Part shown: one piece after another, positions 1,310-30,748 of the stretch
Numbering within the stretch: the stretch's first letter is position 1
Layout: every line of letters starts with the position of its first letter
Assembly: GCA_017455685.1 (NCBI GenBank)
Contig: JAFSZH010000060.1
Coordinates: forward strand, 1-38,813
Reading direction: 5' to 3'
Length of the DNA stretch: 38,813 nt
Origin: Oscillospiraceae bacterium
Lineage (GTDB): Bacteria; Bacillota; Clostridia; Oscillospirales; Oscillospiraceae
The notes under the pieces: model-generated
The model's input: the letters and a program-made list of their open reading frames with translations, nothing else
Databases searched by the model: none
What the model was told of the DNA's origin: nothing
Program-made: the position numbers and the translations under genes

Positions 1310-1450
1310 TCAGCCGACCTGCAGGGGGCAGCCCACGTAGTCGATGCGCATGCTCTGCACGATCGCCATGCGGACGGCGGGGTCCTTTTCCCAGCTGTCG
1401 TCATTGAGAAGCCGGAGCCAGAGCTCGTCGATGGGATAATGTTCTTCCAT
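1310..1450 (-). CDS. Small protein (46 aa) behind UroD-fold gene 1
   Basis: Uncharacterised small protein. It begins with ATG 15 bases after the stop of the UroD-fold gene at 1466, preceded by GGGAGGAG at good distance, so it is very probably translated and coupled to that gene. The product begins MEEHYPIDELWLRLL, is mixed acidic and hydrophobic, contains KDPAVRMAIV and ends GCPLQVG; no signal peptide or membrane helix is evident. The other two UroD-fold genes here (7843, 29427) are also followed by small genes in the same place. Similarity between this one and the other two is faint at best. Function unknown; a partner or stabilising subunit of the UroD-fold protein is one possibility. Its stop is only 56 bases from the recombinase gene. 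Confidence 0.72.
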   Translation of the reverse strand: MEEHYPIDELWLRLLNDDSWEKDPAVRMAIVQSMRIDYVGCPLQVG

Positions 1451-1465
1451 AAGTGTTCTCCTCCC

Positions 1466-2632
1466 TTACTGTCTGCTGTACTGATCCGCGAACTGATAGG
1501 CGGCGATGATGTTTTCCGTTTTGGCGTCCCGGGCACCCAGCAGCGGCTTGTTGTTGCCGAAGATGAACCCGCCGCCGGGGGCAAAGGTATCGAAGCATTT
1601 CTTCGCGTAGGCCACGCACTCGTCCCTGGTGCCGCACTGGAGCAGCTCCAGCGGGGCCCCGGCGATCAGCGTGTGCTTTTCACCGATGATCTTGTAGGCC
1701 TCGAAGGGATCGTCCTGCTCCAGCATGAAGATCATGGAGTGATCGGGCAGATCGTTGTAGTAGTCAATGGTGTTCAGGAACGAGCCCTCGCCCTTGAGCA
1801 GGAACTTGACGCCCTGCTCCATCATGGGCCGGTATTGCCGTGTGAAGGGTTCCCAGAAATACTTCTCGAACTGTTTGGGGTTCAGGAAGCACTCAATGTG
1901 ATAAATGGTCATGCCGATCTTGTAGGGCAGACCGTCAGCCCAGTGGGGGTTGAGCGGCATGGGCATGCTCTCCAGGATCTGAATGAGGGCGTCCACCTTT
2001 TCCGGGCGGCGGCGCAGGTCAACGAGCGTCTCCTTCAGGCCCCGGATCTCATCGCAGATCTGGCTCAGCGGAGCGCGGTACATGGGACCGCCGGCGAACA
2101 TGGCCACCGCCTGGAACCGGCCTTTTTCCAGCCTCCGGCGCTCGATCTCCGCGTTGAACAACCGGAAGTTTCTGGTGGCGAGGGCGGCTTCCTTCAGCTT
2201 GGCATAGGCCTCTTCCCTGGGAAGATCATAAATGCTGTAGAGCCGCCGGACCCGCTTATCGAACATATAGGCGGGATAGTTGTTCAGCAGCATGTCGTAC
2301 TCCTCCGCGGAAGCGAACTCGGTGCCGATCTGGTTGTGGACCGGGTAGACCCCGTCGCTGCCCATGGTGTAAAGATCCGAGCCCAGCATGTTGTAAATGG
2401 GGGGCGCCCACATGTAGCCCGCGTCCATCACGTGCAGGTCGAAGGGCACGTCGTCCAGGTATTTGCTGTAAGCCTCCGCGCCCTTGACGGGGTCGGCCAG
2501 GGCCTCGGTCAGCGTCATGCCTCCGTAGGCCAGGGGCCAGCCGGTGACCTCGATCTCACAGGGGATCTTTTTGGGCTCCTTGTGGTCGATGGCGTCGGCA
2601 AAATATTGCATTCTCTCCTGAATGGTATCCAT
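1466..2632 (-). CDS. UroD/MtaA-fold protein 1
   Basis: 388-residue protein of the uroporphyrinogen decarboxylase / cobalamin methyltransferase superfamily. Family signs are LVDLRRRPEKVDALI (mid-protein), IYHIECFLNPKQFEKYF, the late APLELLQCGTRDECV and APGGGFIF. It is not haem-pathway HemE: the N-terminal substrate-binding arginine motif is absent. The zinc ligands of MtaA/MtbA methyltransferases are also missing: where HxCG is expected there is LLKG, and the late PGCG is PGGG. The ATG at 2632 is chosen because AAGGA lies before it and the homologous start begins here; a longer reading frame upstream runs through the preceding gene on another frame. It follows a small membrane protein gene (29-base gap) and precedes a 46-aa gene. 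Substrate unknown; a methyl transfer or another reaction on the same barrel is inferred. Confidence 0.88.
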   Translation of the reverse strand: MDTIQERMQYFADAIDHKEPKKIPCEIEVTGWPLAYGGMTLTEALADPVKGAEAYSKYLDDVPFDLHVMDAGYMWAPPIYNMLGSDLYTMGSDGVYPVHNQIGTEFASAEEYDMLLNNYPAYMFDKRVRRLYSIYDLPREEAYAKLKEAALATRNFRLFNAEIERRRLEKGRFQAVAMFAGGPMYRAPLSQICDEIRGLKETLVDLRRRPEKVDALIQILESMPMPLNPHWADGLPYKIGMTIYHIECFLNPKQFEKYFWEPFTRQYRPMMEQGVKFLLKGEGSFLNTIDYYNDLPDHSMIFMLEQDDPFEAYKIIGEKHTLIAGAPLELLQCGTRDECVAYAKKCFDTFAPGGGFIFGNNKPLLGARDAKTENIIAAYQFADQYSRQ

Positions 2633-2661
2633 AGCAAAGCATCCTTTCCTTGTCTTTGGGA

Positions 2662-3117
2662 TCACGGCCGCCCCTTCGGGTGGGCGGTTTTTGCGGCCAG
2701 AGCGGCCACCTTGTTTCCGATCAACTGCAGCACGATGGACCCGGGGATGTAAAAGGGCATAAACGTGCTGTAAGCGCCGGGCAGCACCGCCGAGAGGGGC
2801 GCCCCGCCCAGGACGCAGCCGAAGATCACCGTCATGATGGGACACATGAACAGCAGCATCAGCAGCAGAATAACGTTGAACATAACGAACGTGAAACCGG
2901 GCGTCCCCGGCTGGCAAAGCTTGGCGGCTACGGCGCCGCCGATCTCTCCTACCGGGATGATCAGGCCCACGGCCACGCCCACCACCAGCCCCACCAGGAA
3001 CTGAACGGGGATCGCGGCCCAGTCAAAGCCGTTGAGCAGTCCGCCCACCACCGTGAAGACGATGGAGAACACAATGCCCATGTAGATCGTGAGAAACAGG
3101 TTTGTTTTTTTATCCAT
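2662..3117 (-). CDS. Small integral membrane protein of unknown function (151 aa)
   Basis: Not recognised with certainty. The protein has about four hydrophobic helices: LFLTIYMGIVFSIVFTVV near the start, a Val/Gly-rich segment (FLVGLVVGVAVGLII), VMFNVILLLMLLFMCPIMTVIF, and a less hydrophobic one near YIPGSIVLQLIG. It ends in a short basic tail. ATG at 3117 has GGAGGG nine bases upstream; an ATG six codons earlier lacks this. It is first in the transcript from the operator-bearing promoter at 3181-3210 and is followed by UroD-fold gene 1, so it may move or sense the compound handled by that protein. This is inference from position only. Confidence 0.72.
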   Translation of the reverse strand: MDKKTNLFLTIYMGIVFSIVFTVVGGLLNGFDWAAIPVQFLVGLVVGVAVGLIIPVGEIGGAVAAKLCQPGTPGFTFVMFNVILLLMLLFMCPIMTVIFGCVLGGAPLSAVLPGAYSTFMPFYIPGSIVLQLIGNKVAALAAKTAHPKGRP

Positions 3118-3164
3118 CGGCAGATCCCTCCTCAAATACGGCCTTTTTGAGAAAAGGCCAAAAA

Positions 3165-3210
3165 TTAACCATGGTAAGAATATTTAACCATGGTAAACCG
3201 GCGTTGTCAA
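3165..3210 (-). promoter_or_regulatory. Promoter with two ACCATGGT operators
   Basis: On the minus strand TTGACA (3205-3210) and TAAATA (3181-3186) are 18 bases apart and point at the membrane protein/UroD operon. Two copies of TTAACCATGGTAA, each centred on the palindrome ACCATGGT (3168-3175 and 3187-3194), are exactly 19 bp apart. One fills the end of the -10/-35 spacer, the other lies at the start-site region. A repressor bound here would block transcription. The TetR gene next door (3241-3906) is the obvious candidate. Confidence 0.75.
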
Positions 3211-3221
3211 TAGGGAAACAG

Positions 3222-3257
3222 AAAAAACCGGCCGCAGTTTTCAAAAACTGCAGCCGG
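3222..3257 (-). terminator. Rho-independent terminator of TetR gene 1
   Basis: On the minus strand CCGGCTGCAGTTTT pairs with AAACTGCGGCCGG (one mismatch) and is followed by six T. The stop codon of the TetR gene (3241-3243) lies in the loop, so the last codons form one arm of the hairpin. It separates the regulator from the operon promoter just downstream. Confidence 0.85.
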
Positions 3258-3906
3258 CGTGGATCCTTTTCAGGTTTTCCGGTTCAATCAGATCGAGCAT
3301 CAGAGATACATCCCGTTCCAGAGTCGTCCTGGGCGGTTTCTTTCCTGTGAACAGAAGGGAAAGGAGCGCAAGCATATAGCAGGCGGCTTCCCGCAGGGTG
3401 ATCATGCCGCTGAGCAGCATTTCAATGGAGCGATAATCCGCATCGGACAGTACCCCGGTCTTCCAGGCCAGCAGCTTGTGGCTTTCCCGCTCCTTCACGT
3501 TGAACAGGGCCGACATAGGCGTAGTGCCCTGTTCCTCCTGTATTTGCAGAATGATGTCCGCAAGGAGTTCCCGCTGCTGCCAGAGAGCGTCTACGAAGAA
3601 CCGGGCAAACTCGGGATATTCCGTCATATAGCACAGGTGAGTTACCCAGAAGAGAGAGGCAAACGCCGGAGACGTCCGAACGGCGTGCCGGGCGGCAATC
3701 CAATCAGCTTCCGTTTTCAGGGTGTTGAGGTATCTGCCGATGATCTGCCTGGCGATATCCTCTTTGCCCTTGAAGTGGTAGAGGACGTTGGCATGGGTGA
3801 TGCCGCAGGCCTCGGCGATCGCCCGAAGAGTGGTCTGAGAATATCCGCGCTCCAAAAACAGCGAATAGGATTCGCCGAGGATTTTATCTTTGATGCCTGC
3901 CGCCAT
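3241..3906 (-). CDS. TetR/AcrR family regulator 1
   Basis: 221-residue one-component DNA-binding regulator. The N-terminal helix-turn-helix spans about residues 8-50 (GYSQTTLRAIAEACGITHANVLYHFKGKEDI, written here only as its landmarks: TTLRAIAEACGIT and LYHFKGKE). The rest is the helical ligand-binding and dimer domain, rich in aromatic residues. ATG at 3906 is preceded by GAGG. It is read in the same direction as the membrane protein/UroD operon but is separated from it by its own terminator and the tandem ACCATGGT operators, which it probably binds. Ligand unknown; likely the substrate of the UroD-fold protein or a relative of it. Confidence 0.9.
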   Translation of the reverse strand: MAAGIKDKILGESYSLFLERGYSQTTLRAIAEACGITHANVLYHFKGKEDIARQIIGRYLNTLKTEADWIAARHAVRTSPAFASLFWVTHLCYMTEYPEFARFFVDALWQQRELLADIILQIQEEQGTTPMSALFNVKERESHKLLAWKTGVLSDADYRSIEMLLSGMITLREAACYMLALLSLLFTGKKPPRTTLERDVSLMLDLIEPENLKRIHAGCSF

Positions 3907-3939
3907 AAGAAAACCTCGTTCACGTGTCGGTGATTTAGA

Positions 3940-3967
3940 ATTATACCATGCTTTTCGAGAAAAACAA
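3940..3967 (-). promoter_or_regulatory. Promoter of TetR gene 1
   Basis: TTGTTT (3962-3967) and an extended TGGTATAAT -10 (hexamer 3940-3945) on the minus strand, 16 bases apart, lie 34 bases before the TetR start codon. No ACCATGGT copy is seen here, so autoregulation through that operator is not supported. Confidence 0.6.
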
Positions 3968-3976
3968 TCCCCGTTG

Positions 3977-5782
3977 TCAGCGGCGCTTTTGTCCGGCGGG
4001 GCGTTCCGGCCGGACCAGACAGTTCTTTCCGGTGCCGATCAGGTCCTCCCGGCCGCACTCGCGCAGGGCGGCGCGGACCAGCGGGGCGTTTTTGGGCACG
4101 GTGTACTGCAGCAGGGCCCGCTGCATGGCCTTCTCCCGGGGGGAGCGGGGCACGTACACCGGCTTCATGGTGGTGGGGTCGATGCCGGTGTAGTACATGC
4201 AGGTGCTGATGGTGCCGGGGGTGGGGTAAAAGTCCTGGACCTGCTCGGGCCGGGCGTTGTGCCGCTTTAAGTACAGCGCCAGCTCCACCGCGTCGGCAAG
4301 GGTGCTGCCCGGGTGGGAGCTCATCAGATAGGGCACCAGGAACTGCTCCTTGCCGTAGCGCTTGTTGAGAGCGCCGTATTTCTGCAGAAACCGCTCGTAG
4401 ACCTCCGCAGGCGGCTTGCCCATGTAGCCCAGCACGCTGTCCACGCAGTGCTCCGGGGCCACCTTCAGCTGGCCGGAGATGTGGTAGCGCACCAGCTCGG
4501 AGAGGAAGGGGCTGTCCTTGTCGCAGAGCACGTAGTCGAAGCGGATGCCGGAGCGGACGAAGACCTTTTTCACCCCCGGGATGGCCCGGAGCTTCCGCAG
4601 CAGGGCCAGGTAATCACGGTGGTCCGCGATAAGATGCTCGCAGGGTTTGGGGGTCAGACAGTGTTTTAAGGGGCACATGCCGTCTTTTAACTGTTTGTCG
4701 CAGGAGGGACGGCGGAAATCCGCGGTGGGCCCGCCCACGTCGGACACGTAGCCCTTCCAGGCGGGGTGCCGGGTCATGGCCTCCACCTCCGCGATGACGC
4801 TCTCATGGCTCCGGCTGGTGACCATCCGGCCCTGGTGGAAAGCCAGGGCGCAGAAATTGCACCCGCCGAAGCAGCCCCGGTTGTGGATCACGCTGAAGTG
4901 GACCTCCTCGATGGCGGGGACGCCGCCCAGGGCGTCGTACATGGGATGGGGCTCCCGGGTGTAGGGCAGGGCGGCCACCGCGTCCAGCTCCGCCGTGGTC
5001 AGGGGCATGGACGGGGGATAGACCGACAGGTATTTATCCCCGTGGCGCTGGATCAGCGTCCGGCCCCGGATGGGGTCGTGCTCGGCGTTTTCGGTCCGGG
5101 TCGCTTTGGCATAGAGCTTTTTATCGGCGGCGACCTCCTCGTAAGAGGGCAGGGCCAGGGCGTCCCTGGGCGGCTGGGAGAGGATCACCGCGGTGCCCCG
5201 GATGCCCCACAGGGGCCGGCGGTCCCGCATCCGGTCGGCGGCCTCCAGCGTAGCCGTCTCCCCCATGCCGTAGACCAGGATATCCGCCCGGGCGTCGAAA
5301 AGGATGCTCCGGCGGACCTTGTTGTCCCAGTAGTCGTAGTGAGCGAAGCGGCGCAGGGACGCCTCCAGCCCGCCCAGCAGGATGGGAGTCCCGGGGAAAG
5401 CCTCCCGGGCCCGGTTGGCGTAGACGATGCAGGCCCGGTCCGGCCGAAGCCCCGCCTTGCGGCCGGGGGAGTAGAAGTCCTCGCTCCGGCGCTTTTTGGC
5501 GGCGGTGTAGTGGGCCACCATGCTGTCCAGATTTCCCGCGTTGATGAAAACGCCCACCTCCGGCCGCCCCATGGCGGCGAAGGCGGAAGCGTCCTTCCAG
5601 GCGGGCTGGGCCAGCACGGCCACCCGGTAGCCCGCATCGGAGAGCACCCGGGAGATCACCGCCGTGCCGAAGGACGGGTGATCTACGTAGGCGTCGCCCG
5701 TCACCAGCAATATATCGTACCACTCCCAGCCCCGGGAGAGCATGTCCTCCCGGGAGACAGGCAGAAAATCGTTCCGGTCCAC
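3977..5782 (-). CDS. ygiQ: YgiQ family radical SAM protein
   Basis: 601-residue radical S-adenosylmethionine protein of the YgiQ family (UPF0313), whose reaction is not known. An N-terminal cobalamin-binding-like region (DILLVTGDAYVDHPSFG) precedes the radical SAM domain with the iron-sulfur motif GCFGGCNFC (Cys 304, 308, 311). Conserved family blocks follow: DVGGPTADF, CDKQLKDGMCPLKHC, VRSGIRFDY, KVAPEHC and FYPTPGTISTCMYYTG. The start is taken as GTG at 5782, giving VDRNDFLPVS; the stop of the upstream gene is five bases before it and its last codons supply GGAGG, so the two genes are translationally coupled. The longer frame upstream lies inside the preceding gene. Slightly shorter than the enterobacterial protein, normal for Clostridia. 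Confidence 0.95.
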   Translation of the reverse strand: MDRNDFLPVSREDMLSRGWEWYDILLVTGDAYVDHPSFGTAVISRVLSDAGYRVAVLAQPAWKDASAFAAMGRPEVGVFINAGNLDSMVAHYTAAKKRRSEDFYSPGRKAGLRPDRACIVYANRAREAFPGTPILLGGLEASLRRFAHYDYWDNKVRRSILFDARADILVYGMGETATLEAADRMRDRRPLWGIRGTAVILSQPPRDALALPSYEEVAADKKLYAKATRTENAEHDPIRGRTLIQRHGDKYLSVYPPSMPLTTAELDAVAALPYTREPHPMYDALGGVPAIEEVHFSVIHNRGCFGGCNFCALAFHQGRMVTSRSHESVIAEVEAMTRHPAWKGYVSDVGGPTADFRRPSCDKQLKDGMCPLKHCLTPKPCEHLIADHRDYLALLRKLRAIPGVKKVFVRSGIRFDYVLCDKDSPFLSELVRYHISGQLKVAPEHCVDSVLGYMGKPPAEVYERFLQKYGALNKRYGKEQFLVPYLMSSHPGSTLADAVELALYLKRHNARPEQVQDFYPTPGTISTCMYYTGIDPTTMKPVYVPRSPREKAMQRALLQYTVPKNAPLVRAALRECGREDLIGTGKNCLVRPERPAGQKRR

Positions 5783-5787
5783 AGGTC

Positions 5788-6576: not shown

Positions 6577-6609
6577 AGGCTCTTATCCTCTGTCAGTTTC
6601 TTCGGTTAT

Positions 6610-6638
6610 AGAATAGCCGCTTTCCCCGGCGCTGTCAA
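6610..6638 (-). promoter_or_regulatory. Promoter of GH1-like/ygiQ operon
   Basis: TTGACA (6633-6638) and TATTCT (6610-6615) on the minus strand are 17 bases apart, 34 bases before the ATG at 6576. No operator dyad stands out. Confidence 0.7.
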
Positions 6639-6643
6639 TGAAG

Positions 6644-6681
6644 AAGCCCGGAAACGGACGGGGAAGTCCGCTTCCGGGCTT
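6644..6681 (-). terminator. Hairpin after MerR gene, probable terminator
   Basis: AAGCCCGGAAGCGGAC and GTCCGTTTCCGGGCTT on the minus strand make a 16-bp stem with one mismatch. The following CTTCTTCATT is only a weak T-run, so termination may be partial; read-through would reach the ygiQ operon promoter. Confidence 0.6.
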
Positions 6682-6778
6682 ATGCGATTACGCCATTCCT
6701 GTCAGTTCCGCGCTCCCTGCATGCAGAATGCATCAGTTGCAAATGATGCGACGCCGGGGAACACTGGCCTCTCCGATG

Positions 6779-7630
6779 TTATGTATTAAAAACGCAGGAA
6801 GAGCCTTCCATGCTTTTGAGGGGAATATATAAGACAACATATCGGTGATATGTGTCTTCAGCACGGACCCGGGCAAGGTATTTCCCGTAAATTTCTCCGG
6901 AGGCTTTCCACCCCCTTTCTGAAAGATACTTTGACACCGGGATAAAAACGGAAGCATTCAGCTCTCCAATGTCCCCGATGTCCACCGCATACTTCAGATA
7001 TATCTTCTCCGGGAGAAGGATCGCTTTTTCTTTGTCGATCTCGATCCCTGTCTTTTGCAGATCGCTGTCAAAAATCAATCCGCCACGGACTATTTTTATA
7101 TCACCGTCAGCCCTCAGCTGGGAAAAAGCCGTCTGAAAAGTCGGGACGCAGTAAGGCGTCATGGAGGCCATGGCAGCCATTTCCTCACTCGTTATCTCGA
7201 ACCCGTCCAGATCGTCCCCCGCGTGTTTTTTTCCTATCGGCAAAAACCACATATCCGGGACTCTCTCGACCAGAAACGTGCCCTGGTTCAAAATGCATTG
7301 CTCCAATTGTTCCTGCCAGAAAGTCATGTACTCCAAAAGAAGCTGTTCCCGAAAGATCTGTTCTTTCAGAGAACTGCTTTTTTCTTTCATTGTTTGATGA
7401 AATTGCCGTAGCGTGCCGCTGTCCACGGCGTCCGCGTAATCCTGCAGGGAGAAGTTGAATTTCCTGTATACAGAGCTGTCCATCAAACTGAACATATCCC
7501 ACTCGCTGTAAACTCTATAGTTGTTTTCCTTGTTTCTTTTCGGATGGATCAGGCCTTTCGCCTCATAATGACGAATAGACTCCGCCGTTACTCCAAAGGC
7601 CCTGGCTATTTCCCCTATTTTGAAAAGCAT
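6779..7630 (-). CDS. MerR family transcription activator
   Basis: 283-residue MerR regulator. The N-terminal winged helix-turn-helix starts FKIGEIARAFGVTAESIRHYE, KGLIHPKR follows, and YRVYSEWDM is the usual second helix block. A coiled-coil dimer segment (KEKSSSLKEQI) leads to a long C-terminal effector domain of about 170 residues of the GyrI-like/multidrug-binding size, without the cysteines of metal sensors. ATG at 7630 has GGAGG eight bases upstream; a TTG five codons earlier is less likely because it would start inside that site. It is divergent from UroD-fold gene 2, whose promoter has the 19-base spacer that MerR proteins act on. A small organic ligand is likely; its identity cannot be read. 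Confidence 0.9.
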   Translation of the reverse strand: MLFKIGEIARAFGVTAESIRHYEAKGLIHPKRNKENNYRVYSEWDMFSLMDSSVYRKFNFSLQDYADAVDSGTLRQFHQTMKEKSSSLKEQIFREQLLLEYMTFWQEQLEQCILNQGTFLVERVPDMWFLPIGKKHAGDDLDGFEITSEEMAAMASMTPYCVPTFQTAFSQLRADGDIKIVRGGLIFDSDLQKTGIEIDKEKAILLPEKIYLKYAVDIGDIGELNASVFIPVSKYLSERGWKASGEIYGKYLARVRAEDTYHRYVVLYIPLKSMEGSSCVFNT

Positions 7631-7688
7631 TTCCTTCGCCTCCAAGTCTCAAACTGTTTGAAGATCGGATTTGCTGCCTCTAATACAA

Positions 7689-7717: not shown

Positions 7718-7783
7718 TGGTATTTTGGAAAGGGCCGTCGGATTGCTGCGAAAAGCCGCCGACGCCGGGAAGAAAAATAATCC

Positions 7784-7814: not shown

Positions 7815-7842
7815 TTACTCATCAAGGAAAGGAGGCGGCCAA

Positions 7843-9012
7843 ATGAGTCAGGAAACATATCAAACCAGACTGGATCGCATTAAGAAGGCTGTGAAACGCG
7901 AGGAACTGCCGGACCGCGTACCGGCGCTGTTTCAGTATTTCGGATGGATCATCGAATATTACGGCTATTCCCTGGCGGACTACTACCGCGACGACCCGGC
8001 CATCGCGCCGGAATGTTATCGGAAGGGCATGGAAGAATTCGGATTTGACGGCGCGTTTAATCTGAACAATGTTTCTTCCTACAAATCGACGGAGGCCATG
8101 GGCGGCGGAATGTACGCCGTGACCGAACGGGGGATCCAGGTATCCAACATCGCCACCGCGGAGGTCATGAGCGAGAACGAATATCCTCTGCTCACAAAAG
8201 ACTTTATCGGTTATCTGCGTGACTACACCATGCCCAGGAGGTTTTCCAAGCTGGCCGGGGGGAACACCGACGAAGCTCTGCAGGCCCTGAAAACGGCCCA
8301 GACGGAAAAGCTCAAGTTCCTGAGCGTCGTGGCGCCCGGCTGGGGTCAGATCGAAAAGGCAGGCTGCCCCATCATGTGGCACGCCGGCGTACTGACGCAC
8401 CCTGTGGATTTCTTGCTGGACTATCTGCGGGACTTCAAGGGCATCACCCTGGATCTTCGCCGCAGGCCGCAGGAGGTGCTGGACGCCATGGCGGTGATCC
8501 AGGATTACCTGATGAAAAACGTCTATCCCGCCTTCAAGGCCGATCCGGACTGCAAGGGGCCCTTCTGGCCAACGCATCTGGCGTGCTTCCTCAACCGCAA
8601 GCAGTTTGAAAAGTTCTATTTCCCCTATTTCAACGAAACGCTCACCTATTGCATCGACCGCAAGATCTACAGCGGCCTGATCCTGGAGGGCAACTGGGAA
8701 GCGTATTTTGACACCATGCAGGACATCCCGGACAACAATTATCTGGTGAGCACCATGGAGTTCGGTGATTTCAAGAACTTCAAGGCGCGGATGGGCAAAA
8801 AGTTCACAGTCTGCGGCGGGTTGCCCGTGAGCACCCTGGCGCTGGCCTCCCGGGAGGACTGTGTGGACCAGGTAAAGAAGATCCTGGACGACTGCGCCCC
8901 GGGCGGCGGGTTCATCCTGTCGGCGGACAAGGCACTGCTCAATGCCGGCGACGCCAAGGGTGAAAACATGAAGGCCGTGATGGAGACCCTGGAGCTTTAC
9001 GGAAAATACTGA
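7843..9012 (+). CDS. UroD/MtaA-fold protein 2
   Basis: 389-residue UroD/cobalamin-methyltransferase superfamily protein, closest in this window to the one at 1466: shared blocks are LDLRRRPQEVLDAM, ACFLNRKQFEKFYF, GLPVSTLALASREDCV, CAPGGGFILS and a terminal GDAKGEN. The methyltransferase zinc ligands are replaced: LILEG stands at the HxCG site and PGGG at PGCG. The HemE arginine loop is absent as well. ATG at 7843 follows AAAGGAGG; longer frames start upstream of the promoter. It is the first gene of a transcript with a 41-aa gene, an MFS transporter and a second carrier, which suggests catabolism or modification of an imported small acid. The reaction cannot be named. Confidence 0.88.
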   Translation: MSQETYQTRLDRIKKAVKREELPDRVPALFQYFGWIIEYYGYSLADYYRDDPAIAPECYRKGMEEFGFDGAFNLNNVSSYKSTEAMGGGMYAVTERGIQVSNIATAEVMSENEYPLLTKDFIGYLRDYTMPRRFSKLAGGNTDEALQALKTAQTEKLKFLSVVAPGWGQIEKAGCPIMWHAGVLTHPVDFLLDYLRDFKGITLDLRRRPQEVLDAMAVIQDYLMKNVYPAFKADPDCKGPFWPTHLACFLNRKQFEKFYFPYFNETLTYCIDRKIYSGLILEGNWEAYFDTMQDIPDNNYLVSTMEFGDFKNFKARMGKKFTVCGGLPVSTLALASREDCVDQVKKILDDCAPGGGFILSADKALLNAGDAKGENMKAVMETLELYGKY

Positions 9013-9026: not shown

Positions 9027-9152
9027 ATGGAAAACAACGAAATGAAAGCACTGTTCGATCGTTTCAGGGATGAGACCTTTTCTTCCCTGCCTACGGAGGC
9101 GGCGAAAGATGCGGCGATTGCCGCATTCATCTTCGGCTTTGCCAAGCTTTGA
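9027..9152 (+). CDS. Small protein (41 aa) behind UroD-fold gene 2
   Basis: Uncharacterised small protein. ATG at 9027 lies 14 bases after the UroD-fold stop and follows AAAAGGAGAAGG, so translation is likely. The N-terminal half is charged (MENNEMKALFDRFRDE), the C-terminal third hydrophobic, ending AAIAAFIFGFAKL. The tail resembles that of the 57-aa protein at 30575 (VFAVVFGSIQM): Ala, Phe and Gly are identical and hydrophobic positions are kept, and both proteins end at the same point. This supports a small family tied to UroD-fold proteins. Function unknown. A longer frame on this strand that covers the last part belongs to a different phase and is not coding. Confidence 0.72.
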   Translation: MENNEMKALFDRFRDETFSSLPTEAAKDAAIAAFIFGFAKL

Positions 9153-9225: not shown

Positions 9226-10449
9226 ATGAAAAAGAAGCTTTTTTACGGTTGGATCCTTATGGTAGTCACGTTTGTGACGATGGGTCTTGTGAATTACCTC
9301 GGCGTCAGCAGCTTTGGCCTGTTCGTTGCCCCGGTTGTTAAAACCATGGGCATCAGCGCAACGGCGTTCCTTGTCTGCGCAACCATGAATTCCCTGGGCG
9401 GAATGCTGGGCGGCGCCATAGGCGGGAAGCTGCTTGATAAATACGGGCTCAAGCTCAGCGGGACCGTCGCTTCTATCCTTCTTGCGGCCGCGTTCATTGG
9501 CCTGAGCCTCGCCAAGACTCTTCCGGTGTTTTATGTCTGCTATTTTGTTATCGGTTTCTCCTCGATTGCCACCGGAACGATTTTCATTAACAAATTCGCG
9601 GCCAAATGGTTTGACAAATACCGCGGCACCGTGTCCGGCATCTGCGCTGCAGGCCAAAGCACCTTTACAGTGCTTCTCGCGTCTGTCTTTGCAAAAGACA
9701 TTCAGGCAGCTGGGTATTCTCACACCTATCGGATTATCGCTTACATTCTTGCGGGCGTCGCAGTCGCAAATCTCCTCTTCATGAAGAACGATCCCTCGGA
9801 CGTCGGACAATACCCCGACGGCGGCGATGCCTCGAGCGGTGAAAAGAAGGCTATGCAGCTGACGGGCATGACGGCAAAGGAGGCCATGAAGACCTCCGCC
9901 TTCTGGCTCATCGTCATCGGCTTCGGCGTGCTGAACATTGCCTCGCTCGGCGTGATCCAGACGTATAATGCGCATTTCCAGAGCGTTGGGTATCCTGCGG
10001 TCATCGCGGCTATTTCAGCAACGACGTACGGCGTTGCAGGCATCGTTGCGCGGGTGCTTTGGGGCAGAATCGCGGACAAGGTCAATTATAAATTCGCGAC
10101 GGCGATCGGCGGGGTCATTTTTATTGCAGCCGTTCTGTATCTTTCTTTCGTGAAGAGCGCCGTATCCAATACCCCGCTGTACATCTTCGGCATCCTCTTT
10201 GCCCTCGGCAACGGCTATATTTGGGCGCTGATGGTCAAATTTGTCGGCAACAACTTCGGAACAAGAGCTTTTGGGCAGCTCAACGGATATATCATGACGG
10301 CTATGATGGCTGGCGCAATGCTGGGTTCTCCCATAGCCGGAGCTATTTTCGACAAAACCGGGTCCTACTCTACAGCATATTTGCTATTCGGAGCGATCGC
10401 TGCTGTGGCTACTGTTATGATGGTGGCGGCAAAGAAGCCGAAATCCTGA
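9226..10449 (+). CDS. MFS transporter, oxalate/formate antiporter-like
   Basis: 407-residue major facilitator with about 12 membrane helices, of the OFA/monocarboxylate-like group: FYGWILMVVTFVTMGLVNYLG opening, the loop GGKLLDKYGLK between helices 2 and 3, KWFDKYRGTVSGICAAGQS, and GRIADKVNYK in the second half. The central loop near residues 195-215 is hydrophilic (DPSDVGQYPDGG is typical of the group). ATG at 9226 follows GGGAGA. It lies 73 bases after the small gene of UroD cassette 2, in the same direction and with no terminator between. Substrate is probably an organic acid or methylated small acid, by family and context. Base composition is less GC-rich than in the flanking housekeeping genes. 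Confidence 0.88.
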   Translation: MKKKLFYGWILMVVTFVTMGLVNYLGVSSFGLFVAPVVKTMGISATAFLVCATMNSLGGMLGGAIGGKLLDKYGLKLSGTVASILLAAAFIGLSLAKTLPVFYVCYFVIGFSSIATGTIFINKFAAKWFDKYRGTVSGICAAGQSTFTVLLASVFAKDIQAAGYSHTYRIIAYILAGVAVANLLFMKNDPSDVGQYPDGGDASSGEKKAMQLTGMTAKEAMKTSAFWLIVIGFGVLNIASLGVIQTYNAHFQSVGYPAVIAAISATTYGVAGIVARVLWGRIADKVNYKFATAIGGVIFIAAVLYLSFVKSAVSNTPLYIFGILFALGNGYIWALMVKFVGNNFGTRAFGQLNGYIMTAMMAGAMLGSPIAGAIFDKTGSYSTAYLLFGAIAAVATVMMVAAKKPKS

Positions 10450-10505: not shown

Positions 10506-11954
10506 ATGAAACAAGGCTTGCTGGATATCAAAGGAAAACTCGCAGATCCCTTCTCTTGGAGAATAGTCATCTCAATCATTATTACCGCAGCATGCATTAT
10601 CATAGGAAACGCGCTGCCTCTTGACGCGTTCGGGGAAAGCACAGGACTGGCGTTGGGCTTTTTCGTCGGGTTCGTGTCAATGTTCATCATTAATCCATGG
10701 TCATTGGTCGTTTCCTCGATTCTGATGGTGATAACTGGTTATATGCTTGGATTCTGGACCTGGCCAGAGTTTCAGGCGTCTACGGGAACGTCCTCCTTTT
10801 TACAGCTTTTATGCATGATGGTCGTCGCGCTTGGTGCGGAGACAACGCCTGTTGGGCGAAGGATAGCGCTGACCATGCTGAAAAAATGGGGAAAAAAGCC
10901 CGTTACAATGGTTGTTGTATTCGGCGCATTGTCTGCGATCCTGTCCTCCGTGGTCTCAGACAACGCAGTAATGATCCTTATGGCCAGCATTGCCAACAAC
11001 ATGCTTTTGACCATGGAGGAAAAGCCCGGAGAATCCAGGCTCGGAAGGGCGATTATTACGGTGATCTGCGCCGGTTCGTTCCTGGGCGGAAGCATTCTGA
11101 TCAGCGGTGCACCGCTTGGAAATACATACGCAATATCTCTTATGAAAGCCGCCTCCGGAGGCATTGGCGGTATCTCCTTCCGGCAATGGGCGGCCATGGG
11201 GATCCCTGCTTTTATCGTAGTGGCAATCCCTCTCGGATTGATTTATGCAAAGTGCAACAAACTAAGCAATCATAATCAAACGAGCACCGTATCCGATGAT
11301 TATTACGACAAGCTTTTGAAAGAACTTGGGCCAATAGACGGATCAGAAATTCGGTGGATACTGATCACGCTTACTATGGTTGTTCTCCTGCTGATGAACT
11401 ACCATGGAACAATCGTCCCCTTGGCGTGCGCCGCAGCCAGCATTATGCCCATGATCGGCACCATGAGGGACGTCGACATGTTCAAGAGGATCCCTTGGTT
11501 CATCCTTATGGCCGTGTATTTCATGACCATCTTCGGGACTCTGTTTTCAAATACAGGTCTCGGAAACTTTATCGGAACGCTGATCAGTCCGATCATGAGA
11601 GGCCTCTCGCCGTACGCATTCTCTGTGATCGGGTGCTTGATCGGAGTGACCCTGGTCAACATTTGCGTGAACGGGCAGCTAGCTATGTACCCGTTGGTGA
11701 TAGGAGTGCTGACGCCGATCTGCGTAAGTCTCGGGTATAACCCCTCTGTTGTTATGTGGCCGGTGATCTGCTGCCTGGCATTCTTCGTAATCATCATGCT
11801 CAATAAAGAAATGCTTATTACAAAGGGATACGGCTGGTGGAACACAAAGGATGGATTACTTCCCGGGACATTGTCTGGGATAATGCTCTCTTTTGTCTTT
11901 CCGCTCTCTGCAATAGTCATCGGGCCGCTTGTCGGATTGCCCCTGTATTTGTAA
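10506..11954 (+). CDS. Ion transporter superfamily carrier (DASS/SLC13-like)
   Basis: 482-residue membrane carrier with about 11-12 helices and an inverted-repeat plan of the ion transporter superfamily (DASS, ArsB, NhaD relatives). The two half-site regions are visible as ILSSVVSDNAVMILMASIANN (landmark SDNAVM) near residue 155 and VTLVNICVNGQLAMYP near residue 385, where DASS proteins have SNT motifs; here they read SDN and VNG, so the ion site may differ. A hydrophilic loop with SDDYYDKLLKELGP lies at about 260-280. ATG at 10506 follows AAAGGGG. Probably in one transcript with the MFS gene (56-base gap), ended by the terminator at 12053. Substrate likely a carboxylate; not certain. Confidence 0.78.
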   Translation: MKQGLLDIKGKLADPFSWRIVISIIITAACIIIGNALPLDAFGESTGLALGFFVGFVSMFIINPWSLVVSSILMVITGYMLGFWTWPEFQASTGTSSFLQLLCMMVVALGAETTPVGRRIALTMLKKWGKKPVTMVVVFGALSAILSSVVSDNAVMILMASIANNMLLTMEEKPGESRLGRAIITVICAGSFLGGSILISGAPLGNTYAISLMKAASGGIGGISFRQWAAMGIPAFIVVAIPLGLIYAKCNKLSNHNQTSTVSDDYYDKLLKELGPIDGSEIRWILITLTMVVLLLMNYHGTIVPLACAAASIMPMIGTMRDVDMFKRIPWFILMAVYFMTIFGTLFSNTGLGNFIGTLISPIMRGLSPYAFSVIGCLIGVTLVNICVNGQLAMYPLVIGVLTPICVSLGYNPSVVMWPVICCLAFFVIIMLNKEMLITKGYGWWNTKDGLLPGTLSGIMLSFVFPLSAIVIGPLVGLPLYL

Positions 11955-25772: not shown

Positions 25773-25777
25773 AATAG

Positions 25778-25818
25778 AAAACGCGGGACGCCGATAAAAA
25801 TTCGGCGTCCCGCGTTTT
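25778..25818 (+). terminator. Terminator of spoIVB
   Basis: AAAACGCGGGACGCCGA and its complement (25802-25818) form a 17-bp perfect stem, TTTT at the end. Confidence 0.88.
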
Positions 25819-25849
25819 ACGATCATTATTGATTTGTCCCCGGGAAACA

Positions 25850-25878
25850 ACGGGCCGACGAGGGCGTCGGCCCCTGCA
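25850..25878. repeat. REP-like hairpin repeat
   Basis: GGGCCGACG (25852-25860), loop AGGG, CGTCGGCCC (25865-25873), then CTGCAT; on the minus strand it reads GCAGGGGCCGACGCCCTCGT. Short extragenic hairpins that begin TGCAGGGGC are common in Oscillospiraceae genomes by my recollection. Only this one copy lies in the window. It is between the spoIVB terminator and the end of the PAP2 gene. Confidence 0.55.
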
Positions 25879-25880
25879 TA

Positions 25881-26822: not shown

Positions 26823-26918
26823 AAGGTCATCCTCCTGTATTTGTTGCGATCTGTGCCAACGGCATTATACCACCTTTTGGGAAAAAAGGAAGAGAGAACC
26901 CCGCTGCGGAAAGGGGCA

Positions 26919-26947
26919 TTGTAATCCCGGCGGGTTTTTGGTATAAT
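26919..26947 (+). promoter_or_regulatory. Promoter upstream of sortase B
   Basis: TTGTAA (26919-26924) and extended TGGTATAAT -10 (hexamer 26942-26947) with 17 bases between. It implies a 5' leader of roughly 155 bases before the sortase start. Confidence 0.68.
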
Positions 26948-27110
26948 ATCCTTCGCACCCCGGCGGCCGCAAAGGGGAAAACCGGCAGAAAGACGCCTGC
27001 AGGCGTCACTGCCGGGATGACCGCGGCGCCCGGGAAGCTTTGCTTCGTCAGTCTGCCCGCCTGCATCGTGCTGTTCCGCGCGCCGGCCGGCCGGCTTCGG
27101 GAGGATACCA
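26948..27110 (+). other. Long structured leader of the sortase gene
   Basis: The leader holds a long composite hairpin: CCGGCAG (26982-26988) with CTGCCGG (27009-27015), enclosing GACGCC TGCA GGCGTC (26992-27007), then GAAGC TTT GCTTC (27034-27046), and a CCGGCCGG run shortly before the ribosome site GGGAGG. Motifs such as AAAGGGGAAAACC, GGGATGACCG and CGTCAGTC recall riboswitch joining regions, loosely the c-di-AMP (ydaO) class, but the diagnostic GGGGTGAAT is absent. It may be a regulatory leader or simply a dispersed repeat. Confidence 0.4.
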
Positions 27111-27956
27111 ATGCGTAAATGGCTCATCAGAATCATCTTTATCGCGCTGCTGTGCGTGTTCGCGTTTTCAGCCACCCGGCTGGTGATGATCCGGCTGAAG
27201 TACCGCACCGGTGAGAAGACCTACAGCCAGGCGGTCAGCGAGTTTACCCGCCCGGCAGGAAGCACCGCCGCCGGCGGCAGAGAGGGGAACGGGACCGGCG
27301 ACGTGACCCAGTACGGGCTCCCCGGCTCGGTGACCGTGGAACCCCCCCGGCCCGACCAGGCACCCATCGAGGTGGACTTTGATCTGCTCATCTCCCGGAG
27401 CAAAAACGTGGCCGGCTGGATCTACTGCGAGGGCACGGTCATCAACTACCCCGTCATGGCGGCGCAGCGGAACAACTACTATTACGTGGAGCATGACTTC
27501 ATGGGCAACCGGGACTTTTGCGGCGCCATTTTCATCGACTACGAGAACGAGCGGGACTTCACGGACTGCAACACCATTGTCTATGGTCACAATATGAAAA
27601 ACAACACCATGTTCGCCACCCTGGAATACTGGGAGGAACAGGAGTATTACGACAAGCACCCCTGCCTGTGGCTGCTGACGCCGGAGCAGGATTACCGGGT
27701 GGACGTCTTCTCCGTCTGCCATACCGCCGCCGACTCTGAGATCTACGACATTCACCCCGAGCCCTGTGCGGGCTTCGACGAGTACCTGGAACGGGCGATC
27801 TCCGCGTCGATGATCGAGACCAGCACGGAAGTCACCGGACAGGACCGGATCGTGGTGCTGTCCACCTGCACCAACGTGTACGATCTGGAGCGCATCGTGG
27901 TCTTTGGCAGGCTGACGCCGGTGAACAGCGCCGGCGGCGTGCCGTTCGCCGCGTAA
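27111..27956 (+). CDS. srtB: Class B sortase
   Basis: 281-residue cysteine transpeptidase that anchors surface proteins to peptidoglycan. N-terminal membrane anchor in residues 3-25 (WLIRIIFIALLCVFAFSATRL), a Gly/Thr-rich linker, then the sortase barrel from about residue 90 (NVAGWIYCEGTVINYPVM). Catalytic residues are His in VYGHNM, Cys in VLSTCTN and Arg in ERIVVFGR, all in class B context. No LPXTG/NPXTG substrate gene is adjacent. ATG at 27111 follows GGGAGGATACCA. Ended by the terminator at 27971. Confidence 0.95.
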   Translation: MRKWLIRIIFIALLCVFAFSATRLVMIRLKYRTGEKTYSQAVSEFTRPAGSTAAGGREGNGTGDVTQYGLPGSVTVEPPRPDQAPIEVDFDLLISRSKNVAGWIYCEGTVINYPVMAAQRNNYYYVEHDFMGNRDFCGAIFIDYENERDFTDCNTIVYGHNMKNNTMFATLEYWEEQEYYDKHPCLWLLTPEQDYRVDVFSVCHTAADSEIYDIHPEPCAGFDEYLERAISASMIETSTEVTGQDRIVVLSTCTNVYDLERIVVFGRLTPVNSAGGVPFAA

Positions 27957-27970
27957 GGATAAAAAATGAG

Positions 27971-28008
27971 CCGGGGCGGTTCCCGCGTGGGGAACCGCCC
28001 CGGTTTTC
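27971..28008. terminator. Terminator after sortase B
   Basis: CCGGGGCGGTTCCC and GGGAACCGCCCCGG form a 14-bp stem followed by TTTTCATTTTT; A-rich sequence on the left side lets it serve the convergent acetyltransferase gene also. Confidence 0.9.
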
Positions 28009-28624
28009 ATTTTTCCAGCAGCTCCGGCGGCACGCCCAGGTCCCGGCAGTAGAACGCCCGGTCCCGCTCGCCGATCTCCCGGAGCACCCGGCAGGGGACG
28101 CCCGCCGCCACCACGTTGGCGGGCAGGTCCCGGGTCACCACGCTGCCGGCGCCCACCACCGTGTTGTCCCCGATGGCGACTCCGGGCAGCACCGTGCATC
28201 CGGCCCCCAGCCAGCAGTTCCGGCCGATGCGCACGGGAAGGTTGTACTGCAGCCCCCGCTCCCGCAGCTCCGGCAGGATCGGGTGGGCCGCGGTGACCAG
28301 CGTCACGTTGGGCCCGATCATGGTATGGTCCCCCACGTAGATGTGGGGGTCATCCACCAGCGTCAGATGGAAGTTGGCGTAGACCTGCCGGCCGAAGTGG
28401 CAGTGGGCCCCGCCGAAGTTGGCGTAAAAGGGCGGCTCGATCCAGCAGCCCTCTCCGAGCTCGGCAAACATCTCCCGCAGCAGGGCTGCCCGCCGGTCCG
28501 CCCGGGAGGGCGGCAGGGCGTTGTACTCGTACAGCTTTTCCACCAGCGGCTGCTGGATCGCCATGATCTCCGGGTCGTTGGGATCGTAGAGCTCCCCCGT
28601 GTGGAGCTTGTCCAGCGGGCTCAT
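28007..28624 (-). CDS. Maltose/galactoside O-acetyltransferase-like protein
   Basis: 205-residue acetyltransferase with left-handed beta-helix hexapeptide repeats, of the Maa/LacA/NodL group that acetylates sugars from acetyl-CoA. N-terminal Mac domain (KLHTGELYDPNDPE to LLREMF), then repeats including HTMIGPNVTLVTAAHP with the catalytic His, IGRNCWLGAGCTVLPGVAIGDNTVVGAGSVV (landmarks NCWLG, GDNTVVGAGS), and a C-terminal GVPCRVLREI. ATG at 28624 overlaps the TetR stop by four bases (ATGA), so it is coupled to the regulator. Why a sugar acetyltransferase travels with the TetR of UroD cassette 3 is not clear. Confidence 0.92.
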   Translation of the reverse strand: MSPLDKLHTGELYDPNDPEIMAIQQPLVEKLYEYNALPPSRADRRAALLREMFAELGEGCWIEPPFYANFGGAHCHFGRQVYANFHLTLVDDPHIYVGDHTMIGPNVTLVTAAHPILPELRERGLQYNLPVRIGRNCWLGAGCTVLPGVAIGDNTVVGAGSVVTRDLPANVVAAGVPCRVLREIGERDRAFYCRDLGVPPELLEK

Positions 28625-29274
28625 TTCCCCGCCTCCCGGCCCGTTCTCTCCACTGTCCGCACCCGGATCGGCCGATCCGTCACGGCGGAGAAGACCCGGG
28701 GCAGCAGACGGGCGGCCGTCTCCCGGTAGCTCTCCCCCTGGGTCAGGGTGACCCAGTACATCAGCACCCCGTGGGCGCCCATCAGAAGATATTCCGCGTC
28801 GCCCCGGCAGTCCGCCCCGGGCGCTACGGTCCCCGCGTCCTTGCCCGCCTCCAGAAATGCCTGGATCTGCCGGATGCCGCTGTCCCGGGGCAGGGCGTCG
28901 TAGCCGCCGGCGGTGAGCCGGGGCACGCTGATCACCGCCTGCTGCACCACGTCCTTGCCGAACCGGTCGCAGAAATCCGCGATGCTGGTGAAATAATCGC
29001 ACAGCGACTGATAGGGCTGAGCCAGATTATCCTCCGTCAGCTCCAGATAGCAGGCCCCCCGGGCCAGGATCTCATAGTAAAACTGCAGCAGCACCCCCAG
29101 CTTGTCCCCGAAAAAGTTATAAAAAGAACTGGTGGTGATCCCCGCGTTCCGGCAGATGTCCCGGACGGTGGTCTGCTCGTAGCCGTATTCCTCAAACATC
29201 TGCATGGCGATCTCAAAGATCGCCTGTTTCTTTTCCCTTGACCGGAGGGCCTGGGGCGTATTGCGTTCTTTCAT
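28621..29274 (-). CDS. TetR/AcrR family regulator 2
   Basis: 217-residue regulator. Helix-turn-helix in about residues 15-60 (FEEYGYEQTTVRDICRNAGITTSSFYNFFGDK; landmarks TTVRDICRNAGIT and FYNFFGDK), then a helical effector domain. ATG at 29274 has AGGAGG upstream; a longer frame runs back through the promoter and operator. It is divergent from UroD-fold gene 3. The dyad TGTAACACGTTACA sits in its own leader, and related half-sites cover the start region of the opposite promoter, so it probably represses both. Not closely similar to TetR 1. Confidence 0.92.
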   Translation of the reverse strand: MKERNTPQALRSREKKQAIFEIAMQMFEEYGYEQTTVRDICRNAGITTSSFYNFFGDKLGVLLQFYYEILARGACYLELTEDNLAQPYQSLCDYFTSIADFCDRFGKDVVQQAVISVPRLTAGGYDALPRDSGIRQIQAFLEAGKDAGTVAPGADCRGDAEYLLMGAHGVLMYWVTLTQGESYRETAARLLPRVFSAVTDRPIRVRTVERTGREAGK

Positions 29275-29284
29275 AGCTGCCTCC

Positions 29285-29331
29285 TGTAACACGTTACAAC
29301 AAATCATACAGGATTTTTCCCCGAATTTCAA
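29285..29331 (-). promoter_or_regulatory. TetR gene 2 promoter and operator
   Basis: TTGAAA (29326-29331) and TATGAT (29303-29308) on the minus strand, 17 bases apart. The dyad TGTAAC AC GTTACA (29285-29298) lies just after the -10, between promoter and ribosome site, consistent with autorepression. Confidence 0.78.
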
Positions 29332-29344
29332 TAGATCTGTTGAT

Positions 29345-29400
29345 TGACGGGAAAAGACTTTCTCCTCTATAATTGTAACATGTTTTGGAACGCGTTACAA
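29345..29400 (+). promoter_or_regulatory. UroD-fold gene 3 promoter with overlapping operators
   Basis: TTGACG (29345-29350) and TATAAT (29369-29374), 18 bases apart. Two 14-base operator-like sites follow at once and overlap by two bases: TGTAACATGTTTTG (29375-29388) and TGGAACGCGTTACA (29387-29400). Each has one good arm matching the TGTAAC/GTTACA dyad in the TetR leader. Two TetR dimers side by side would cover the start site. Confidence 0.8.
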
Positions 29401-29426
29401 TTATTATCACAGAGGAGGAGAGCCAC

Positions 29427-30560
29427 ATGTATTCCCAGGAATTCCAGGACAAGGTACAGCTGTTCCTGGATGCCGCCCGGTTTGAAAACAAAACTGTGCC
29501 CAATCTCAGCAACGACTACACCTGGAAGATCAGCGACTCGAAGTACAGCTACAAGGAGGCCTACTTCGACAGCAAGAAGATGAAAAAGCTGGTGTGCGAG
29601 AACCACGAGCGCTACAACTACGACGCCTATCTGGATCTGGGCACCCGGAACCACTTCCCCCAGATGCAGGCCCTGGGCGGCGGCAGCTACGTGCTCAACG
29701 AGGCCACCGGCGGCATCAACGTCACCGATCAGCCCACCCTGCAGCCGGAGGAGTACGGCGAGTTCGCCCAAAACCCCATGGCCTGGTTCAACATCCTGTT
29801 CCAGCGGAAGTTCCCGGATCTGAAGACCGAGGACTTCGTGAAGGCCACCATGGCCTTCCTCCAGGGCAGCGGCTACGCCAAGGATATCGCCGAGCTCTTT
29901 GCCGCAAAGTACAGCCGCCCCGCCATGGTCACCACCAGCGCCAGCGTACAGCCCGCCTTTGAGCTGTTCCACAGCTCTCTCCGGGGCATCGCCGGGGTGT
30001 CCACGGACATGCGCCGCCACAAGGCCGCCCTGCTGGAAGCCTGCCAGAGCTACTGGAACGTGATGGGCCGGCCTGCCCTGCAGCGGGCGCTCTCGGCCAG
30101 GGACAAGAACTATATCGCGGACGTGTACTTTGCCATCATCGGCCAGGCCGTGCTCAACCGGAAGCAGTGGGAGGAATTCTACTGGCCCCAGGCCAAAGAG
30201 ATCCTGGAGACCACCGCGGCGGCGGGGCGGCTTACCTTCATCTACGTGGAGAGCAACGTCGACCGCTTTGCCGATTATTTCCGGGACGTGCCCCGGGGCA
30301 GCGCCATCATGCACCTGGAGCTGGACGACATTTTTGCCATGCGGCAGGCTCTGCCGGATATGCCCCTGGCCGGCGGCATGAACACCGAGCTGCTGGGCGC
30401 CGGCACGCCGGAGCAGTGCGTGGAGCGGGCCAAAGAGCTCATCGGCACCCTGGGCGCGGGCTTCGTGATGAGCCAGAACAAGATGCTGTCCTTCAAGAAC
30501 GATTGCAGGCGGGAAAACCAGCTGGCGGTGAACGAGTACGTCCGCGGCGTGAAGCTGTGA
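29427..30560 (+). CDS. UroD/MtaA-fold protein 3
   Basis: 377-residue UroD superfamily protein, more distant from the other two in the window but sharing IIGQAVLNRKQWEEFYWPQ (block LNRKQ), GMNTELLGAGTPEQCVERAKEL near the C-terminus (canonical GTPExV site) and the position of the late loop. Zinc ligands of the methyltransferases are again missing: FIYVES stands at HxCG and LGAGF at PGCG. The N-terminal part is rich in Tyr and Lys and lacks the HemE arginine motif. ATG at 29427 follows GAGGAGGAG; a frame starting 14 codons earlier would begin in the operator. It is controlled by the divergent TetR 2 and followed by a 57-aa gene. No transporter is present in this cassette. Reaction unknown. Confidence 0.85.
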   Translation: MYSQEFQDKVQLFLDAARFENKTVPNLSNDYTWKISDSKYSYKEAYFDSKKMKKLVCENHERYNYDAYLDLGTRNHFPQMQALGGGSYVLNEATGGINVTDQPTLQPEEYGEFAQNPMAWFNILFQRKFPDLKTEDFVKATMAFLQGSGYAKDIAELFAAKYSRPAMVTTSASVQPAFELFHSSLRGIAGVSTDMRRHKAALLEACQSYWNVMGRPALQRALSARDKNYIADVYFAIIGQAVLNRKQWEEFYWPQAKEILETTAAAGRLTFIYVESNVDRFADYFRDVPRGSAIMHLELDDIFAMRQALPDMPLAGGMNTELLGAGTPEQCVERAKELIGTLGAGFVMSQNKMLSFKNDCRRENQLAVNEYVRGVKL

Positions 30561-30574
30561 TAAGGAGGAAGAGC

Positions 30575-30748
30575 ATGAACATTCTCAAAGCCGTGATCGA
30601 CCAGAAAAAGGCTGTGAAAAAGCTGAAAAAAATGGAAGTCTACAGCCCCGAGTGGTGGAAGACCCTGCCCGAGACGGTGACCTTCGTGGACGAGGAGCTG
30701 CGCCCCATGATGGTCTTCGCCGTGGTATTCGGCAGCATCCAGATGTAA
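30575..30748 (+). CDS. Small protein (57 aa) behind UroD-fold gene 3
   Basis: Uncharacterised small protein. ATG at 30575 lies 14 bases after the UroD-fold stop, with AAGGAGGAAG between, and a terminator follows 14 bases after its own stop, so it is the last gene of the transcript. The N-terminal half is lysine-rich and helical (VIDQKKAVKKLKKME), then YSPEWWKTLPE, and a hydrophobic end MMVFAVVFGSIQM. The end resembles that of the 41-aa protein behind UroD-fold gene 2. It may bind the UroD-fold protein or the membrane; unknown. Confidence 0.78.
   Translation: MNILKAVIDQKKAVKKLKKMEVYSPEWWKTLPETVTFVDEELRPMMVFAVVFGSIQM

Follow-up and report, generated by a model that had tools for sequence, protein, structure and literature searches.

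The window analysed here, a stretch of 38,813 nucleotides (nt), comprises positions 1 to 38,813 of the forward strand of contig JAFSZH010000060.1 from the Oscillospiraceae bacterium assembly GCA_017455685.1. It carries three genes for proteins with the fold of the uroporphyrinogen decarboxylase (UroD) superfamily, each closely followed by a small gene. An earlier note, made from the sequence alone, had drawn attention to these pairs and had proposed that a barrel enzyme and a small partner protein together make up a two-part system. The UroD-type stops at 1466 (minus strand), 9012 and 30560, and the small frames of 46, 41 and 57 codons, all lie exactly where that note had placed them. The spacing of 14–15 nt that it gave agrees with measured gaps of 15, 14 and 14 nt, and the ribosome sites ahead of small genes A, B and C (GGGAGGAG, AAGGAG and AAGGAGG, respectively) are indeed strong. 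The pairs are as follows, with protein lengths in amino acids (aa):

1466..2632, minus strand: UroD-fold gene A, methyltransferase-I-like, 388 aa
1310..1450, minus strand: small partner gene A, 46 aa, start 15 nt past the UroD stop
7843..9012, plus strand: UroD-fold gene B, methyltransferase-I-like, 389 aa, PF01208 at 2.8e-13
9027..9152, plus strand: small partner gene B, 41 aa, start 14 nt past the UroD stop
29427..30560, plus strand: UroD-fold gene C, methyltransferase-I-like, 377 aa, PF01208 at 3.8e-5, marginally below cut-off
30575..30748, plus strand: small partner gene C, 57 aa, start 14 nt past the UroD stop

The assignment of all three large genes to the UroD superfamily stands. Pfam recognises B and, marginally, C; URO-D was unmatched in a Pfam search of gene A alone, and A aligns with B from end to end (28% identity, E=7e-40). 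Counterparts of the small proteins occur beside related UroD genes. Small protein C is 84% identical to the one beside a related UroD gene in locus L136, and the two genes differ by 32 synonymous and 13 non-synonymous changes. Small protein A shows 41% identity over 37 aa to the small protein of L044, which accompanies a related UroD gene in the same genus (E=1e-8, as a single comparison). Small gene B has no close ortholog for comparison, because the nearest UroD relative of gene B among 120 pairs is just 35% identical; in a whole-genome search it was matched at E=0.006 by the small-protein profile A6, which includes small gene B itself.

The same arrangement is found throughout the source genome (1.89 Mb, 72% complete). 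A search with profile A3, built from 19 of the genome's 25 UroD proteins, gives these 25 UroD-fold genes of one subfamily, and a small gene of 34–58 codons with a ribosome site lies 3' of 21 of them. Three others (L011, L041 and L042) have a C-terminal extension of some 65–70 residues in place of the small gene. The sole gene with neither, L037, has a transporter downstream and, after that, the UroD gene L038 with its small gene, in an apparent operon. The 21 small proteins have a mean identity of 18%, compared to a shuffled baseline of 11% and to 26% for their UroD partners. When a profile of 86 small proteins was searched against six whole genomes it gave 24 matches, 14 of them in the source genome, and all 24 lie directly 3' of UroD genes. 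The shortest small frame, in L003 (source genome contig C63), is 34 aa from its ATG and ends before reaching the hydrophobic C-terminal segment, possibly as a decayed copy.

Among relatives, the fetched loci contain 191 unique UroD frames, of which 139 score at least 255 bits and 52 score below, a cut-off set after the score list had been inspected. A small gene accompanies 131 of the 139 higher-scoring frames, within 45 nt in 128 cases and at longer gaps in three (L110, L125, L092). Six more have a C-terminal extension (L011, L041, L080, L081, L173, L183). The remaining two, L037 and the first gene in L087, have neither, and each has a UroD–small-gene pair downstream. The 52 lower-scoring frames comprise one cut frame with a small gene (L143), five with extensions (L042, two in L145, L146, L154), two with chance-like small frames (L048, L066) and 44 with nothing, some of them cut at contig ends. 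As a control, we counted frames of 30–72 codons with a ribosome site no more than 40 nt behind the gene, for other genes of at least 200 codons in the same loci. Such a frame follows 9 of 526 control genes (1.7%) compared to 111 of 164 UroD frames of all kinds. The arrangement is beyond chance, as the earlier note had argued, and it is much more general than the three cases in the window. One candidate for a broken copy, the UroD match of L162/L251 with an in-frame TAA, was rejected, as this TAA is the gene's own stop.

In a FastTree phylogeny of 178 rows, with the chance-like frames after the distant UroD genes L066 and L048 scored as 'none', a single branch (with weak support, 60) sets the 35 'none' rows apart from all others, and three changes account for the fused state. 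UroD genes of the source genome occur in most of the branches with small genes, and this set is therefore not a recent local duplication. In the order of strain CEB3, which we take to be Desulfitobacteriales, UroD-subfamily matches occur in 42 of 70 genomes. A small gene is present in 27 of the 29 new loci from this order (23 found by script, and L259, L283, L284 and L285 by eye), while the remaining two, L275 and L287, carry a fusion. Two further observations concern the range of the arrangement. In L096, a contig of a goat jejunum Bacillota metagenome-assembled genome (JAFRIQ010000019.1), five UroD frames lie within 11 kb, each with its own, different small gene. In L243 (Syntrophaceticus schinkii) and L244 (CEB3), UroD genes ending EYGVY or EFGTY are followed by small genes of a second class, 59–61 aa long and of PWEEK...W type, and the pairing therefore extends outside the main clade.

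The nucleotide substitutions are those of protein-coding genes. Over 40 independent pairs, the small genes show 718.7 synonymous differences at 1183.7 sites and 599.3 non-synonymous differences at 4438.3 sites, giving pS 0.607 and pN 0.135, similar to the values for the UroD genes (pS 0.594, pN 0.108). Judged by this pattern, the small genes are under purifying selection; a lack of synonymous excess, which the earlier note had named as the result that would speak against its proposal, is not what we see. No Pfam or NCBIfam family fits the small protein: with 86 small proteins, the only matches at E<=0.01 were to three unrelated families, each matched by a single small protein (E 0.005–0.009). 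The earlier note had also pointed to an end pattern shared by the two plus-strand small proteins (AAFIFGFAKL and FAVVFGSIQM). This pattern is real, but was drawn too narrowly, since a hydrophobic C-terminal end is general: in 121 distinct small proteins, the residues V/I/L/M/F/W/Y/A/C make up 50–91% of each position from −12 to −3. Residues 6–23 are amphipathic (helical moment 0.314 compared to 0.199 when shuffled, standard deviation (sd) 0.009), and the C-terminal 18 residues show no significant moment (0.240 compared to 0.231, sd 0.010). A YPEG-type motif, YP[EDKN][GDA], occurs in 55 of the 121, and 77 have a basic residue at −15. The hydrophobic run of just some ten residues is short for a membrane anchor, and this reading is disfavoured.

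Several UroD proteins carry the small protein as their own C-terminal part. This claim is based on BLAST and on a class-2 profile, made from 17 small proteins of the MKTEYYKTWEQY type and searched against 2036 long frames of the loci. At E<0.3 the profile matched UroD C-termini only, namely those of L173 (3.5e-9), L081 (2e-7), L080 (5.9e-6), L011 (1.1e-5) and L183 (3.9e-5); among the same frames L042 reached only E=0.3 and the extension gene of L041 was unmatched. When the second-class small protein of L244 (CEB3) was compared singly with the fused L145, it aligned to the end of L145 at 3e-9. One domain is thus separate in some genomes and fused in others, which is a classical sign of physical association. 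UroD identity and small-protein identity are also strongly correlated (Mantel r=0.75, with a maximum of 0.07 in 500 permutations). Substitution pattern, position and fusion show that the small gene codes for a protein, that it belongs with this UroD subfamily and that in some members it is joined to the enzyme.

The closest solved relative of the large protein is CdmB (9rui). Among PDB chains it was the best match at 1.5e-65 with profile A8, which consists of the natural fusions with L080 as its first row, at 8.8e-49 with A3, and at 6.6e-11 with gene C alone; uroporphyrinogen decarboxylase reached just 3.8e-4 with A8. HemE, the heme-pathway decarboxylase, was considered as the identity of the large protein and rejected: in B the PF01208 match is confined to the C-terminal half, C falls below the cut-off and A is unmatched, and there are 25 copies in the source genome. 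By homology, the enzyme is a relative of the corrinoid-dependent methyltransferases I (MT I) and not a heme-pathway decarboxylase. No NCBIfam model matches the three UroD proteins of the window at E<=1; the MtaA/CmuA model, TIGR01463, belongs to this library. CdmB itself is described as the chloromethane:corrinoid methyltransferase I of Acetobacterium dehalogenans, a UroD-superfamily protein that passes a methyl group to a corrinoid protein, with MtvB, OdmB, VdmB and MtoB as relatives among the UroD-superfamily MT I enzymes (PMC13222342).

The surroundings of the window genes contain transporters and regulators:

3241..3906, minus strand: TetR-type regulator, upstream of gene A, PF00440 at 3.1e-12
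6779..7645, minus strand: MerR-type regulator, divergent from gene B, PF00376 at 5e-13
9226..10449, plus strand: MFS transporter 3' of small gene B, apparently in the same operon, MFS_1 at 1.3e-37
10506..11954, plus strand: DASS/CitMHS anion transporter, possibly in the operon of small gene B, CitMHS at 2.9e-21
28621..29331, minus strand: TetR-type regulator, divergent from gene C, PF00440 at 2.6e-11

Neither a corrinoid protein nor a methyltransferase II (MT II) was found in the window. A serine-type recombinase (window positions 18–1253, plus strand; Pfam Recombinase 1.5e-20, zinc ribbon 3.2e-14) stops 56 bases short of the end of small gene A, which lies on the opposite strand, and a mobile element may border the gene A operon.

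Across the relatives, neighbours were tallied for 70 of 105 listed references, with UroD genes, repeats and a few other proteins of L143, L096 and L098 omitted. Pfam assigns these 70 same-strand neighbours to MFS_1 (11), MFS_2 (9, with possible overlap), B12-binding (11), Pterin_bind of the MT II type (10) and RACo, the reactivating enzyme for the corrinoid protein (2). A corrinoid protein and an MT II both lie in the flanks of 13 of 25 representative loci, and in the 29 loci from the CEB3 order a corrinoid protein is present in 26 and an MT II in 18. RACo (PF14574) was found in 18 of 18 genomes with the subfamily compared to one of 14 control genomes. The corresponding counts are 18 of 18 and 9 of 14 for PF02607, the corrinoid protein domain, and 6 of 6 and 13 of 14 for PF00809, the MT II domain. 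Pfam identifies in the source genome a single stand-alone corrinoid protein (L223), a single MT II (L204) and a complete RACo (L205); PF02607 has two matches there in all. We surveyed 22 source-genome neighbourhoods (19 stretches and the three window sites), choosing proteins for Pfam by eye. At least 17 contain a Pfam-confirmed TetR, MerR or LysR regulator and at least 13 a transporter of the MFS, DASS/CitMHS, GntP, SSF or amino acid permease type. One identified stand-alone corrinoid protein alongside 25 MT I-like genes, many with a transporter and a regulator nearby, suggests substrate modules that feed a shared methyl carrier.

A member of the small-protein family has probably been seen already as an expressed protein. 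In Desulfitobacterium hafniense DCB-2, the cluster rdhUVWX encodes a corrinoid protein, a UroD protein, a MeTr and RdhX, a protein of 48 aa given as of "unknown function" with no similarity in UniProt; the report also describes all four products in the proteome, with similar up-regulation and co-induction with the reductive dehalogenase cluster, proposes a role in corrinoid cofactor biosynthesis or assembly, and counts three copies of rdhUVX in Dehalobacter restrictus (PMC9888536). In genome G1129, taken as D. restrictus PER-K23, we see three clusters of a corrinoid protein, a UroD protein and a 47-aa protein. One lies in L288 and the other two adjoin each other in L289, in agreement with the published description. 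Searched against 3530 small frames, the class-2 profile, which had been built earlier, matches these three rdhUVX-like small genes (4e-8 to 1.5e-7), and it is because of these matches that RdhX is probably an already observed family member, the comparison having been made with its Dehalobacter counterparts. Near the cluster places lies a gene with a twin-arginine translocation (TAT) signal and a double iron–sulfur cluster domain. No dehalogenase Pfam model matched the two such genes tested, and the dehalogenase label comes from the description in the paper (PMC9888536). A gene of 47–48 aa after a UroD gene, with a corrinoid protein and rdh neighbours, is thus seen in Dehalobacter and not in the window, where no dehalogenase was seen beside the genes. 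G1129 also has a fourth corrinoid–UroD cluster (L288, 12235–14278) with an adjoining TAT-signal-like gene; its small gene encodes 40 aa, is of another class and lies ~65 nt past the UroD stop, and the published rdhUVX count is three.

We infer that the small protein is probably an obligate small subunit of UroD-type MT I. In the mechanism we propose, the UroD-fold MT I would take a methyl group from one substrate and pass it to the cobalt of a corrinoid protein, and a dedicated subunit of ~45 aa would bind its own MT I. This subunit would begin with an amphipathic part, would often contain an 'LP'-type turn, and would pack its hydrophobic C-terminal segment against the barrel, close to the barrel's own C-terminus; it would shape or close the substrate cavity. 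A role at the substrate cavity rather than in docking the corrinoid protein is a guess that we hold more weakly, with something less than an even chance of being right; it is proposed on the ground that small proteins differ widely between paralogs whose corrinoid proteins are presumably few and shared. More tentative still is the extension to the whole UroD-type MT I clade of gut Clostridia, acetogens and organohalide respirers, in which these enzymes would all be two-subunit, with the ~45-residue subunit completing the cavity and setting which methylated compound is used.

Two other roles would also suit a subunit, and we regard both as unlikely, to a similar degree. The small protein could serve to dock the corrinoid protein or RACo, outside the substrate pocket, as would befit the fact that corrinoid protein and MT II genes are the commonest enzyme neighbours, and that both a corrinoid protein and RACo directly follow the UroD gene in G198:C10. 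A common partner should, however, keep a common surface, and docking is disfavoured by the mere 18% identity (baseline 11%) of the 21 source-genome small proteins despite the few corrinoid proteins there (two PF02607 matches in a genome 72% complete). A non-catalytic factor for folding, stability or dimerisation of MT I would explain the hydrophobic C-terminal segment without an amphipathic face, the tight gene pairing and the fusions, but the strong divergence of paralogs combined with conservation of orthologs is a better fit to a role tied to substrate.

Two further explanations depart from the subunit reading itself. That the UroD protein is a factor for maturation or insertion of the corrinoid cofactor, assisted by the small protein, draws on the co-induction of rdhUVWX and on the cofactor-assembly proposal in the published work (PMC9888536). 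We give it little credence, as the closest solved relative is an MT I, the typical neighbours are MT II and MFS transporters, plus substrate-type regulators in the source genome, and 25 diverse copies in one genome fit a diversity of substrates. Given the short length of the frames and the weak resemblance of paralogs (mean column identity of 14% in A6), explanations by chance, by leader peptides or by a conserved RNA element might come to mind. They are contradicted by the fusion to the enzyme and by a pN far below pS, and we reject them as having almost no probability; the control rate of 9 in 526 is also against them, and no Rfam match was found in the window or in 10 source-genome stretches.

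The case for an obligate MT I subunit has to be set against several observations that weigh against it. Neither a corrinoid protein nor an MT II is present in the fetched flanks of 12 of the 25 representative loci, and the stretches around the 25 source-genome UroD genes have no corrinoid protein and one MT II, near a single UroD gene. PF02607 and PF00809 as such are unspecific, being frequent in controls. The L041 and L042 extensions are taken as fusions by layout and tree alone, and the co-divergence of UroD and small proteins may come from shared descent alone. MT I activity is predicted from homology and gene neighbours, and physical binding in unfused members from gene fusion, from near-universal pairing and from the lack of small-gene matches away from UroD genes; these last three observations, together with the synonymous excess, support the pairing of barrel enzyme and small partner proposed in the earlier note, with physical binding as its predicted part. 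Finally, CdmB itself (L254, with a C-terminus identical to that of 9rui) lacks both the small gene and the extension, and because CdmB is without such a gene, MT I chemistry needs no small protein in principle. The five other matches in the A. dehalogenans genome that score above CdmB have either a small gene (L242, L245, L251) or a fusion (L239, L248).

Which methoxylated, methylated or halogenated compounds anaerobes can use is determined by their UroD-type MT I enzymes. If our reading is true, the large gene expressed alone misses part of the enzyme, and activity screens could fail or mislead; genes this short are easily overlooked in annotation. For RdhX, an induced protein of organohalide respiration, the analysis offers a family and a testable role.

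In comparison with known systems, CdmB shares the UroD-fold barrel, with homology over the N-terminal region and again from mid-chain as far as the last helix, and a corrinoid protein and an MT II adjoin many loci of the small-gene subfamily. The soluble coenzyme M methyltransferases MtaA/CmuA are likewise members of the UroD superfamily and corrinoid-dependent (PMC10418091). A full-text literature search, with most subscription papers outside it, yielded among the papers inspected only the RdhX paper (PMC9888536) and no report of the family, the fusions or an MT I partnership. RdhX is alike in being a small protein (48 aa) whose gene accompanies those of a corrinoid protein, a UroD protein and a MeTr, but differs in having been described as a lone unknown with a proposed role in dehalogenase corrinoid assembly, with neither a family nor a partnership with MT I recognised (PMC9888536).

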